From NCBI RefSeq assembly GCF_024706985.1, contig NZ_JAMCCX010000072.1, positions 1 through 64,000 on the forward strand: 64,000 nucleotides of DNA, read 5' to 3'. Below, one piece after another: positions 833-41,561 of this stretch. The position numbers and the translations under genes are program-made. The first letter of the stretch is position 1. Every line of letters begins with the position of its first letter. This DNA comes from Alicyclobacillus sp. SP_1. GTDB lineage: Bacteria > Bacillota > Bacilli > Alicyclobacillales > Alicyclobacillaceae. The notes beneath the pieces are model-generated. The model saw only the letters and a program-made list of their open reading frames with translations, ran no database searches and was not told the origin of the DNA.

Positions 833-1204
833 TCACGGTCTCAACAGAAAGAGGCCTATACTGCAAAAGACCACGCCGCTGGCGAGTGAAGTACCGATGT
901 ACGTCAAACCAAGGCGAACGGATTGCTTCAAGAGTCGAACCGTCTCCACTGACATCGTAGAAAATGTCGTAAGGCCCCCGCAGAATCCCTCACCCAACAA
1001 GTCCCATATATCAACGGAGAAGTGATGGAGTAATAACTGTTCGGCAAAGATACCAATGAAAAAGCTCCCAATGGCGTTGATGATCCATGTGGCCCAAGGA
1101 AACTGAGCCTGTCCCAAGGATTCAAAGGATCGTCCAATCCAAAATCTTGCCATCGTGCCCACGATAGCGCCAGCTGCGACACAGACCAAGGCAACGCTGC
1201 TCAT
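833..1204 (-). CDS. crcB2: fluoride ion channel CrcB/FluC, second copy
   Basis: Small (123 aa) four-helix membrane protein of the CrcB/FluC family, which exports fluoride as a dual-topology dimer. Family marks visible are a GTMARF segment near the N terminus, NAIGSFFIG in the second helix and the GGLTTFSTMS segment that lines the pore with Phe side chains. The ATG at 1204 overlaps the stop of the upstream copy as ATGA, so the true start is here and not at an upstream in-frame codon. Two crcB genes side by side are usual where the channel is a heterodimer of oppositely oriented subunits. Both copies sit behind the fluoride riboswitch. Confidence 0.93.
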   Translation of the reverse strand: MSSVALVCVAAGAIVGTMARFWIGRSFESLGQAQFPWATWIINAIGSFFIGIFAEQLLLHHFSVDIWDLLGEGFCGGLTTFSTMSVETVRLLKQSVRLGLTYIGTSLASGVVFCSIGLFLLRP

Positions 1205-1614
1205 CTTCCAACACCTGCCTGTTCCGAGTCGGCAGTTTCCACCGCACGCCTGGCAGGAAACGTGGCCAGAAAATCCCCCAGATAGGCCAGAAACGGTCCA
1301 CCTATCAGACTGACCAGTGCATAAAAGACAGCCACCCATGCGTGCTGTGGTAGCAATTGCACGATATTCAAACTAAACGTCGAAAAAGTTGTATACGAAC
1401 CAATCAATCCAGTGCCAAATCCGACCCTAAGCCAGGCCGGCATCGACCGACGGCCACCTACTCCATAAAACCAGCCAAGCACCAAAGAACCCGACAAATT
1501 GATGACCAGAATGGCCATCGGCCAATGGTTGACATTCGGTATCGCCACACTTAGTGAAAAGCGCGCCAGTCCTCCAAAAATCGCACCAATTGCCAATCCG
1601 ACGTAGACCATCAT
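1201..1614 (-). CDS. crcB1: fluoride ion channel CrcB/FluC, first copy
   Basis: CrcB/FluC fluoride channel subunit, 137 aa, with four predicted membrane helices. Motifs: GGLARF at about 14-19, NLSGSLVLG at about 39-47, and GSYTTFSTFS at about 72-81, the Phe track. The ATG at 1614 (ATGATG) follows an AAGGGG site by a few bases. The gene's stop overlaps the start of crcB2 by ATGA, which indicates translational coupling and a heterodimeric channel. The leader carries a fluoride riboswitch, so expression should rise with cytoplasmic fluoride. The last 20 residues form a polar tail. A separate out-of-frame ATG with a better ribosome site lies just upstream (see findings). Confidence 0.93.
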   Translation of the reverse strand: MMVYVGLAIGAIFGGLARFSLSVAIPNVNHWPMAILVINLSGSLVLGWFYGVGGRRSMPAWLRVGFGTGLIGSYTTFSTFSLNIVQLLPQHAWVAVFYALVSLIGGPFLAYLGDFLATFPARRAVETADSEQAGVGR

Positions 1615-1674
1615 ATCGCCCCTTTTTGTACGCCGCTATTCCCATTGAATCTCCTCCACCCGCCCATACAAAAC

Positions 1675-1755
1675 GACTCCTACTAGCCGACCGCAATGGG
1701 TCGACTAGTAGGAGTCATCAGTCCATAAAGACGGTTATCGGCGAACTCCATCGCC
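1675..1755 (-). promoter_or_regulatory. fluoride riboswitch (crcB motif) with overlapping terminator
   Basis: Read on the minus strand, the leader begins at 1755 with the conserved GGCGATGGAGTTCGCC hairpin, then ATAACCG, then CTGATGACTCCTACTAG ending at 1705. These are the signature segments of the fluoride aptamer. The last twelve bases of the aptamer (1705-1716) are perfectly complementary to 1675-1686, giving a 12-bp hairpin followed by GTTTTG. That hairpin competes with the aptamer pseudoknot. The expected logic is that fluoride binding prevents the terminator and allows crcB1-crcB2 transcription. The match to the aptamer is seen directly; the ON-switch logic is inferred from the overlap. 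Confidence 0.93.
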
Positions 1756-1784
1756 ATCCTCAATTACCCTGCAGGTGTTCCGAG

Positions 1785-2156
1785 TTATATTGCGTTGTAT
1801 AAGACGCGCTTGCGAATTTCCGTAGGATAAAGAGCTTCAAAATGATGATTGGTGACACTGATGAGCGCACTGAAGAAAGCCTCTGCGCTACCTTCCACAA
1901 ACGGATTAGGTAGTACATAAGCGACTCCATCTGTAAAGTAGGCTAACTCCGCATCACCAAAAAACGAGCTGCCATCGCCGTCGCTCCAGAGAATCAGAAA
2001 TTCTCCAGACTCTCCACTGTCTTGAGAAAACCACTTGGTCAGTTCTGCGCAAACTTCATTCGCTTGATTTTGATTAAATCCAGACTCCCACATAGATGTG
2101 GAATATCCGTTATTCTCCAAAAAATTCACAAATGACGACATCCACTGCAAGCTCAC
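1785..2156 (-). CDS. hypothetical protein, 123 aa
   Basis: No family recognised. A compact acidic soluble protein with several Trp and Phe residues, no signal peptide and no membrane helix. The central part, LILWSDGDGSSFFGDAEL, alternates strands and tight turns. The start ATG at 2156 lies after a GAGCGAG-like purine stretch that is only a weak ribosome site. It ends about 30 bases before the fluoride aptamer, so the riboswitch promoter must lie at or inside its 3' end. No functional link to fluoride export is evident. Confidence 0.6.
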   Translation of the reverse strand: MSLQWMSSFVNFLENNGYSTSMWESGFNQNQANEVCAELTKWFSQDSGESGEFLILWSDGDGSSFFGDAELAYFTDGVAYVLPNPFVEGSAEAFFSALISVTNHHFEALYPTEIRKRVLYNAI

Positions 2157-2315: not shown

Positions 2316-2942
2316 TCAATACGTTCCCGCCTTTGACAGGTCTCGAGGAATTCCTTGCATGCCAGGCTGCCAGTCGGCCGGCGCTCCAAGGCCTGTTTTT
2401 CGATGAAATTGAATCGCTTCCATCATGCGAACTATCTCTTTCGCGCTGCGGCCAACGTCTTTCGGATAAATCAGTTTAGCAAGGATGATTCCTTCCGGAT
2501 TAATGATGACCGTAGCGCGAAACGCTGTACCTTCTTTGGTATCAAGGACGCGGTAGTCTCGACAAATCGATTGGTTATGATCACTAATCAGTGGATAGTG
2601 AACATTCTGCATTAAGGGAGACGTTTCACGGAAGACCTTGTGACTGTAAATGCTGTCCGTACTAATGCCGAGCACCTGAGTGTCTAGCTCGATAAGACGC
2701 GAATAAACGGCAGCGACCGCTGCCAATTCCGTCGGTCAGACAAAGGTGAAGTCGCTGGAATAGAAAACAAGTGCCACATAATGGCCACGCAAATCTTCCA
2801 GGTTAACGCGCTTCGATTTACCGCGAACGTAGGCTTCAGCGACGAACAAGGGGGCAACGTCATCTCGACTGGCACAAAAGTCGTTGGCAGAGTCTTGCTG
2901 ATGGCGTCTGTCGTTCCAAGTTTCATGGTCTCGGGAATCCAT
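2316..2942 (-). CDS. peroxiredoxin (AhpC/TSA type), candidate selenoprotein read through UGA at 2736-2738
   Basis: Thiol/selenol peroxidase of the AhpC/TSA family, 208 residues if UGA is read as selenocysteine. The frame gives FYSSDFTFV, UGA, PTELAAV. In the family the residue at that place is the peroxidatic Cys of the DFTFVCPTE motif, so the proposed Sec is residue 69. Homology continues on both sides: AEAYVRGKSKRVNLEDLRGHY before it, and GISTDS, FRATVIINPEG with the active-site Arg142, and DWQPGMQGIP after it. The ATG at 2942 follows GGAGG by ten bases. Oddities: the usual Pro seven residues before the active site is Ser, and the C-terminal resolving CPA is replaced by APA, so a resolving thiol would have to be Cys23 or Cys127, or come from outside. 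A SECIS-like hairpin follows the UGA. The alternative is a recent nonsense mutation. Confidence 0.75.
2701..2729 (-). promoter_or_regulatory. candidate bacterial SECIS element inside the peroxiredoxin gene
   Basis: Downstream of the UGA (2736-2738) the minus strand can fold into a 6-bp stem GGCAGC/GCTGCC (2719-2724 with 2709-2714) closed by a GGTC tetraloop (2715-2718). Below it is a second stem, GAAT/ATTC (2726-2729 with 2701-2704), with unpaired T residues between the two stems. Seventeen bases separate the UGA from the loop. Bacterial SECIS hairpins bound by SelB have a short stem, a loop with G at position one or two, bulged U, and a UGA-to-loop distance in this range. The E. coli fdhF element also shows GGUC in its loop. 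The structure was found by eye and not by energy calculation. Confidence 0.65.
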
Positions 2943-24871: not shown

Positions 24872-24894
24872 GTGAGAAAATTCAATAGAAAACG

Positions 24895-25134
24895 GCTATG
24901 ACAGAGAGAGTACGTTTCAGCATCCACTCAGAGAGTCGGCGGACGGTGCGAGCCGATGGCATGCTGTTGCCGAAGTTCACTCTGGAGCCGCTGGGTGAAC
25001 CAATAGTAGCCTATGCCGGCATCTCGGATATCGTCTGAGATGTACCGTTATCTGAATGAAGTGAGAGGCTTATGCCTTTCCTTTAGGGTGGTACCGCGAG
25101 AAAACTCGTCCCTATGTGGGGCGAGTTTTCTTTT
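24895..25134 (+). promoter_or_regulatory. T-box riboswitch, probable Phe (UUC) specificity, with terminator
   Basis: The leader has the T-box landmarks in order. AGAGAG segments and GGTGCGAGCC (24945-24954) form the distal Stem I loop. The specifier region GAAGTTCACTCTGGAGC (near 24972-24988) follows, then Stem III (CATCTC/GAGATG), and the T-box sequence AGGGTGGTACCGCG at 25085-25098. The triplet TTC followed by A fits a Phe specifier, which agrees with the chorismate mutase gene downstream. The terminator is AGAAAACTCG (25099-25108) with CGAGTTTTCT (25122-25131), then TTT. Uncharged tRNA-Phe should favour read-through. The specifier is aligned by eye. Confidence 0.88.
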
Positions 25135-39786: not shown

Positions 39787-41561
39787 CCCCTATCTCCTCC
39801 AGAACTTGCCCACAGCGAGCGTGCAAACTCATCTCCCTGCGCCGCATCCGCAAATTGTTTGCGAAATATGTCGCGATACAGACCGGGTTGACTGAGCAAC
39901 TCATCGTGCGAGCCTCGCGCGACAATCCGCCCATCCGCCAAAACAACAATGAAGTCTGCCCGCTTCAAGGTAGAGATGCGGTGCGCAATCACAAAGGTCG
40001 TGCACCCTCGCAGGTGCTCATCCAGTGCGCGCTGAATGCGAAATTCGGTCTCCATGTCGACCGCGCTTGTGGCATCGTCGAGAATCAGCACGGACGGATT
40101 CATCAAGATGGCACGCGCCAGTGCCAGTCTCTGTTTTTGCCCGCCTGAAAGCCCCAGTCCGCGTTCCCCAACCAGCGTGCTGTACCCCTCTGGGAGGCGT
40201 TCAATGAACTCTGCTGCATCCGCCAAGGCGGCGGCCCGTTCCACCTCGGCGACCGTCGCGTCCGGCTTCCCGTAGGCTATATTCGCAAAAATTGTCGTCG
40301 AAAAGAGAAATGGTTCCTGAAAAACCACCGCTACTTCCCGACGTAAGCGGTCGAGTGACCATTCGCGAACATCAACACCATCCAATAAAACTTGGCCAGA
40401 GAGCGGATCGTAAAAACGTGGTATCAGTTGGACGAGGCTCGATTTGCCGGATCCGGTCAGGCCAAGCAACGCAACCGTTTGCCCGGCTTCCACGTCTAGG
40501 TCAATATTGGTCAGCACCGCGCGTCCGCCAAATCCTGCTGAGACGTTGCAAAAACTCACCCGCCCGCGCGCTGCCGGCGCCTCGGACTGCGAAGTATTCG
40601 CAATCGCCTGCGGTGCGCTCAGCACTTCATCCAAGCGTTTTGCAGCAGCACTCGCTTGCGTCATGTTGTTTAAGAAGTAACCTAACTGAGACATGGGCCA
40701 TATCATAAACCAAACGATACTGAGAAATGCCACTAAATTTCCAAGGCTGGTCGCATGGGTCATTACCAAATATCCACCCACACCGAGAACGAGGACTACA
40801 CCTACATTGCCCACCAGTTCAATATAGGGGAAGAATTTTTTCCAAAGTACGGCTGCTTCCATGTTCGACGTGAAATACAGGCCATTGTTTCCGTTGAATT
40901 TTCCAATCTCACGATTTTCTTGCGCGAACGACTTGACCGTGCGCACGCCCATGACATTCTCTTGAACACCCGAGTTCAAAGTCGAGAGATTTTCTCGGAT
41001 GGTGCGATAAATCGGCCGCAATTTCGTGTCGAAACGGATGGCGATGACGGCTAAAAATGGCATAAGGATGAGAATGACCGTGGCCAAAATAGCGTTCATG
41101 CTGTACATATAGGCAATTCCGAAGACCACAATCAGGCCAAGTCCCACCAAATTGTTGATACCAAACGCCAAAAACATCCGGAAGGCGTCAAGGTCGAGCG
41201 TCAGCCGCGACATCAAGTCGCCTGTGTGGGTTTCGTCGTAGTAAGAGAAGGGCAACCAATTTAATTTATGGTAGATGGCGTTGCGCAGCCCAAAGGCTGT
41301 GTTGCTGCCAAACTTTTGCGCCAAATACCCTTGACCAAAGTTAAACGCCCCTTTGGCAACGGCGGCTCCGAGCATCGCCGCCAACAGCCACGGCAACTCT
41401 CCGTATTCATGAGCAACAATGACCCGGTTGACAATCAAGTCCAACAAATAGGGATATGCTAGGCTCAGTGCATTGGCGAAAATCAGACAAAATAGACCCC
41501 ACAGCAAGAAACTGCGATGATCTTTATAGTACGGGTAGAGCTTTCGAATGGATTCAGGCAC
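39774..41561 (-). CDS. ABC exporter half-transporter (degenerate ATP site subunit)
   Basis: 595-aa partner of the downstream gene, YheI/BmrC-like. Six membrane helices, then Walker A GLTGSGKSS, signature LSGGQKQR and Walker B ILILDDATSAVD. The usual catalytic Glu after Walker B is Asp, so this chain supplies the degenerate site typical of heterodimeric exporters. The GTG at 41561 follows GCGAGGTGAAAC; the frame is open to 41627 without homology. The 3' end overlaps the second half-transporter gene, indicating coupled synthesis of the two halves. Confidence 0.92.
   Translation of the reverse strand: MPESIRKLYPYYKDHRSFLLWGLFCLIFANALSLAYPYLLDLIVNRVIVAHEYGELPWLLAAMLGAAVAKGAFNFGQGYLAQKFGSNTAFGLRNAIYHKLNWLPFSYYDETHTGDLMSRLTLDLDAFRMFLAFGINNLVGLGLIVVFGIAYMYSMNAILATVILILMPFLAVIAIRFDTKLRPIYRTIRENLSTLNSGVQENVMGVRTVKSFAQENREIGKFNGNNGLYFTSNMEAAVLWKKFFPYIELVGNVGVVLVLGVGGYLVMTHATSLGNLVAFLSIVWFMIWPMSQLGYFLNNMTQASAAAKRLDEVLSAPQAIANTSQSEAPAARGRVSFCNVSAGFGGRAVLTNIDLDVEAGQTVALLGLTGSGKSSLVQLIPRFYDPLSGQVLLDGVDVREWSLDRLRREVAVVFQEPFLFSTTIFANIAYGKPDATVAEVERAAALADAAEFIERLPEGYSTLVGERGLGLSGGQKQRLALARAILMNPSVLILDDATSAVDMETEFRIQRALDEHLRGCTTFVIAHRISTLKRADFIVVLADGRIVARGSHDELLSQPGLYRDIFRKQFADAAQGDEFARSLWASSGGDRGWGA

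Follow-up and report, generated by a model that had tools for sequence, protein, structure and literature searches.

The question raised by this locus is whether a peroxiredoxin gene with a stop codon at its catalytic position is translated through that codon, and whether the short hairpin that follows it provides the signal to do so. A SECIS hairpin is the RNA signal by which selenocysteine (Sec), the 21st amino acid, is placed at a stop codon, and its mechanism is known. The gene lies on the minus strand at 2316..2942 of the window, meaning the whole 64,000-nucleotide stretch of DNA analyzed here, and encodes an AhpC/TSA peroxiredoxin (PF00578, 1e-29) within a frame that runs from 3005 to 2316 and contains a single internal UGA. 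Judging from the sequence, translation probably starts at the ATG at 2942-2940, which has a GGAGG about 10 nt upstream, and the stop codon is a TGA at 2318-2316, a terminator found in 3 of the 30 genes of the clade described below. The internal UGA, at 2736..2738 on the minus strand, is presumed to be a selenocysteine codon. Alignment with solved peroxiredoxins places it at the catalytic (peroxidatic) Cys (TFV-U-PTE), and with both the PF00578 domain and a TxxU motif, in which U is the presumed reading of UGA, the protein belongs with the Sec-containing peroxiredoxins in the broad sense. We consider the hairpin to be a bacterial SECIS element that lies within the coding sequence of a selenium-containing peroxiredoxin, with Sec predicted to be inserted at the catalytic UGA, and we put the probability of this reading at about 0.96.

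The minus strand of 2701-2738 reads UGA-CCGACGGAAUU-GGCAGC-GGUC-GCUGCC-GUUUAUUC. The 5' strand of the stem (GGCAGC, 2719..2724) is separated from the UGA by an 11-nt spacer (2725..2735), and the apical loop (GGUC, 2715..2718) and 3' strand (GCUGCC, 2709..2714) follow. The distance from UGA to loop is 17 nt, with identical spacing in 34 ungapped rows of the comparison below. The initial annotation thus described the stem length (6 bp), the loop (GGUC), and the distance (17 nt) correctly. The bSECIS model is given as a loop of 3-9 nt on an upper stem of 4-16 bp, at least one G in loop positions 1-2, mostly in the arrangement N1 G(G/U) N N2 with N1 and N2 paired, a distance of 16-37 nt from UGA to loop, and a free energy of at most -7.5 kcal/mol (PMC13188914). 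The window hairpin falls within every limit printed there (PMC13188914): it resembles the model in its 4-nt loop, 6-bp stem, early loop G followed by G or U, 17-nt distance, and N1-N2 pair, and within the GGUC loop G2 and U3 are invariant and positions 1 and 4 are paired in 34/34 genes. The genome also carries selA, selB, selC, and selD. The 48 nt downstream of the UGA fold at -19.7 kcal/mol (z of -2.89, with 2 of 200 shuffles as good), and 35 nt alone fold at -12.0 kcal/mol with a z of only -1.48 (18 of 200 shuffles as good). Folding energy by itself is therefore moderate evidence, and the case rests on comparison.

That comparison draws on two alignments, a gap-free set of 20 genes from Bacilli and an ungapped set of 34 UGA-bearing genes from Bacillota (A3), the latter scored over seven pairs, namely the stem and the loop-closing pair. 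A3 omits L176, a contig fragment (V-UGA-PTELAAVAARYDEF), as well as five UGA genes in which the hairpin is displaced or of another form (L165, L166, L178, L182, and L184), since these could not be aligned in register. Across the 20 Bacilli genes, 99.2% of the cells of the 6-bp stem are paired, and 12 cells carry two-sided compensated changes against 3.8 (sd 1.5) in shuffled alignments, none of 500 shuffles being as high; the covariation score is 0.398, compared with 0.195 after shuffling and no more than 0.142 after sliding. Among the 34 genes, 95.8% of cells are paired and 31 are two-sided compensated changes against 7.7 shuffled, with no shuffle out of 500 as high in paired cells, two-sided cells, or score. 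The check proposed by the initial annotation, covariation of the stem bases, therefore returned compensated variation in both sets.

Two-sided change affects both strands of the stem and reaches 5 of the 7 pairs. At columns 18-27 A-U, G-C, U-A, and C-G all occur, and the first and last bases of the loop covary as G-C in 22 genes, A-U in 6, and C-G in 6 around the fixed central GU. The identical six stem pairs are recovered by RNAalifold, unaided. When the hairpin peptide is excluded from tree building, the loop-closing pair is seen to have changed six times, as have its left base and its right base (six each), and its independent contrasts all point in the same direction (3/3); pooled over pairs, the tree-based contrasts run 8.6 the same way and 1.0 the opposite way, with too few per pair for significance. 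Seven genes (L149, L168, L173, L174, L175, L180, and L181) keep 5/6 stem pairs, and L172 keeps 3/6. The hairpin is real, and it is almost certainly a bacterial SECIS element.

The comparison also delimits what belongs to the element. The SECIS stem of Escherichia coli fdhF contains a bulged U, and the initial annotation had proposed a counterpart here. In the window, however, the stem is unbroken. The U preceding it, which occupies the second position of a Leu codon, is replaced by G in L150, where the codon encodes Trp; in 14 of the 20 genes this position pairs with A or G. Selection for a bulge is therefore not apparent, and a functional bulged U of the fdhF type is left without support. The pairs of the outer GAAT/ATTC stem are present in the window, but across the 20 homologues 56.3% of its cells are paired and no two-sided change is seen, so that it looks accidental, and we reject it as a conserved structure. 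An 8-bp version of the stem that adds pair 14-31, broken in 6 of the 20 genes, is likewise not claimed.

As the hairpin lies within codons, it could be regarded as a by-product of the peptide LAAVAA, whose self-complementary GCN codons would generate a stem with no RNA element behind it. The Ala codons GCN GCN .. GCN GCN do dictate 4 of the 6 pairs, and three of the six are invariant in the 20-gene set; the caution of the initial annotation, that part of the fit may be coincidental, was sound to this extent. It does not account for the remainder, since the wobble positions covary, and when the codons of these peptides are replaced at random by synonyms, complete six-pair stems arise in 2.7-3.0 of 20 genes, against 19 of 20 observed. 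In the LSAVAD genes (L112 and L113), moreover, a G-C pair has been swapped for U-A through a change of both amino acids. The motif ELAAVAAVY had been called typical of the family, which is wrong for the Cys relatives: LAAVAA was sought in the Cys homologues and is absent from them, the commonest peptides at the site being LGDLAD and ITALSD. Nor do homologues with a Cys codon keep the hairpin, an observation that had been named in advance as counting against the element; none of 114 has a GGTC loop, and none exceeds 4 of the 6 pairs (114 of 116 loci matched, L160 and L018 being the exceptions, with 112 distinct DNA sequences), a control that includes 80 loci from genome contigs which are Cys by design because most were retrieved with a peptide pattern that contains Cys. 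Finally, the paralogues L165 and L166, with the peptide CACIAV at this site, have an 8-9 bp hairpin elsewhere, with its loop 24 nt past the UGA. An origin of the hairpin from the peptide alone is accordingly very improbable. It appears, rather, that LAAVAA is a footprint of the RNA, the peptide having been set by the RNA and not the reverse.

Two further explanations concern the UGA itself, and we regard each as more improbable still. The codon could be a true stop or a sequencing error, leaving a pseudogene or a restart at an internal TTG, and such a TTG is present at 2726; the terminator of the gene is also TGA, so UGA presumably stops translation in this genome. A stop or an error is difficult to reconcile with the occurrence of TGA at the equivalent codon in all 39 UGA genes, the window included, which come from many families. 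In a plasmid of Cytobacillus spongiae (NZ_CP089998.1), where the same hairpin is present, the RefSeq peroxiredoxin WP_225003809.1 spans the equivalent TGA. The distribution of the gene points the same way. It was found in 6 of 40 other genomes of the family at E <1e-40, with one TGA each, and in two further genomes of the order; SelA scores above its cut-off in 9/9 carriers in the order, that of the window among them, against 29/59 genomes overall, and the other genome belonging to this genus lacks both the UGA gene and SelA. Alternatively, the UGA might be read by another route, such as a near-cognate tRNA or a reassigned codon, with the hairpin merely slowing termination, and stop codon read-through can indeed depend on downstream structure. 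Against this, the genome encodes a tRNA-Sec with the anticodon UCA (64 bits, above the Rfam cut-off), SelB with its C-terminal winged-helix domain PF09107 (375 bits), SelA (544 bits), and SelD (392 bits), and the spacing, loop, and stem of the hairpin fit the bSECIS model. The residue concerned is also the catalytic Cys position, and the gene ends in TGA, so that one mRNA would need to discriminate between two UGAs. We therefore retain selenocysteine insertion as the reading of the catalytic codon. Under this reading, SelB with Sec-tRNA-Sec would bind, just past the UGA, to the apical loop together with the upper stem, selenocysteine would be inserted at the catalytic position without termination, and the enzyme would then be expected to reduce peroxides via its selenol.

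Other genes of this genome also contain in-frame UGA codons. The SelD gene (L109, from 1531, plus strand) has its own, followed by a 7-bp stem with a GGG loop after 17 nt. Locus L019 (594-1331 / 1471-1980, minus strand) encodes a PrdB-like protein with UGA (TAGUPLC), where a 7-bp stem carries a GGUC loop 20 nt past the UGA, and a nearby second, PrxU-like peroxiredoxin with UGA (TPVUG), for which there is a weak 4-bp hairpin candidate only. A Bcp-type peroxiredoxin (L020, 1423-1917, plus strand) has UGA at the catalytic position (DTPGU); a simple hairpin of the window type was sought after this UGA and none was found. A covariance model of the window hairpin, searched against its own genome, returned the window copy at 1.2e-12 with the next E at 0.55 and, having found its own copy alone, revealed no other selenoproteins. 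Elsewhere in the window, a fluoride riboswitch (RF01734, 59.2 bits, 1702-1764, minus strand) precedes two tandem crcB fluoride channel genes (1201-1614 and 833-1339, minus strand), and a T-box leader lies at 24889-25116 on the plus strand (110.3 bits).

Placing the protein among named relatives gives additional insight. PrxU is a selenocysteine peroxiredoxin reportedly described by Soehling et al. in 2001. The window protein shares with it the AhpC-type fold family, Sec at TxxU, and a SECIS directly after the UGA, which in the PrxU members L179 and L183 occupies the same place as in the window. It differs from PrxU in belonging to another clade, in having Ser for the Pro of PxxxTxxU, and in scoring below the cut-off of the PrxU model NF040737 (145.7 bits against 270). 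Compared with AhpC and the typical 2-Cys peroxiredoxins, the domain and the active-site motif DFTFV(C/U)PTE are alike, whereas the window has Sec for Cys, lacks the resolving Cys before the C-terminal PxxW, and again falls short of the model cut-off (TIGR03137, 147.8 bits against 272). Two SECIS positions are seen among the UGA peroxiredoxins, within one enzyme family, as the PrxU-like or paralogous L165, L166, L178, and L182 have their hairpin further downstream (at the +24 loop already mentioned in L165 and L166; a 7-bp hairpin by RNAfold in L178 and L182).

In a tree that included 72 Cys rows, the window gene falls into a clade of 30 genes (clade I), all of them with Sec (30/30; support 100/98), while a further nine Sec genes group separately (clade II), the two of these tested being PrxU by NF040737 (L179, 359.2 bits; L178, 347.4 bits). 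The Sec label requires two changes on this tree, and a single origin appears in 0% of 200 bootstrap trees; because the bootstrap is unsettled and L150 (whose C-terminal frame is odd), L173, and L177 have long branches, convergence is only suggested. Profile searches of 398 genomes from the class and 398 from the phylum returned, at E better than 1e-55, nothing but TGA-bearing genes. Of the 30 clade I genes, 6 retain the Pro of PxxxTxxC (the window has Ser), against 114 of 114 Cys homologues, and 0 have a Cys ahead of the C-terminal PxxW (one lacking a match to the motif), against 103 of 114. Conversely, 16 of the 30 and 3 of the 114 Cys homologues have a Cys at a distance of 37-46 residues on the N-terminal side of the active site, and this Cys may serve as the resolving thiol.

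Whether these features amount to a separate, permanently Se-dependent peroxiredoxin branch in Bacilli and other Bacillota is, in our judgment, evenly balanced. Such a branch would have no Cys member, none having been found, its SECIS would have fixed LAAVAA, and the hairpin would have been acquired at the same site here and in PrxU; the branch would also have lost the resolving Cys and, in most of its genes, the active-site Pro that is supposed to be universal, so that its catalytic cycle may differ. The kind of enzyme is already known, since RefSeq annotates one member. A search for literature on selenocysteine in Alicyclobacillus or selenoproteins in Alicyclobacillaceae returned nothing on this gene by title or opening of the abstract. 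One report describes a protein called PrxU as upregulated in Sulfobacillus thermotolerans grown on ore (PMC7409299). A gene annotated as prxU, a selenocysteine-containing peroxiredoxin, is also recorded in Microcystis phage MaAM05 (MW495066.1, H25, 40481-40975).

In conclusion, the element is ordinary in kind, its support is unusually clear, and the peroxiredoxin branch is less familiar. For Bacilli, the analysis contributes a selenoprotein with good support, together with a SECIS whose compensatory changes are clear, and offers a clean example of an RNA signal in a coding region shaping the protein sequence. As the NCBI PrxU model misses this clade at its cut-off, genes of this type are at risk of annotation as broken genes. 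That the clade lacks the resolving Cys, and mostly the Pro, poses a testable question about selenium-based peroxide chemistry.
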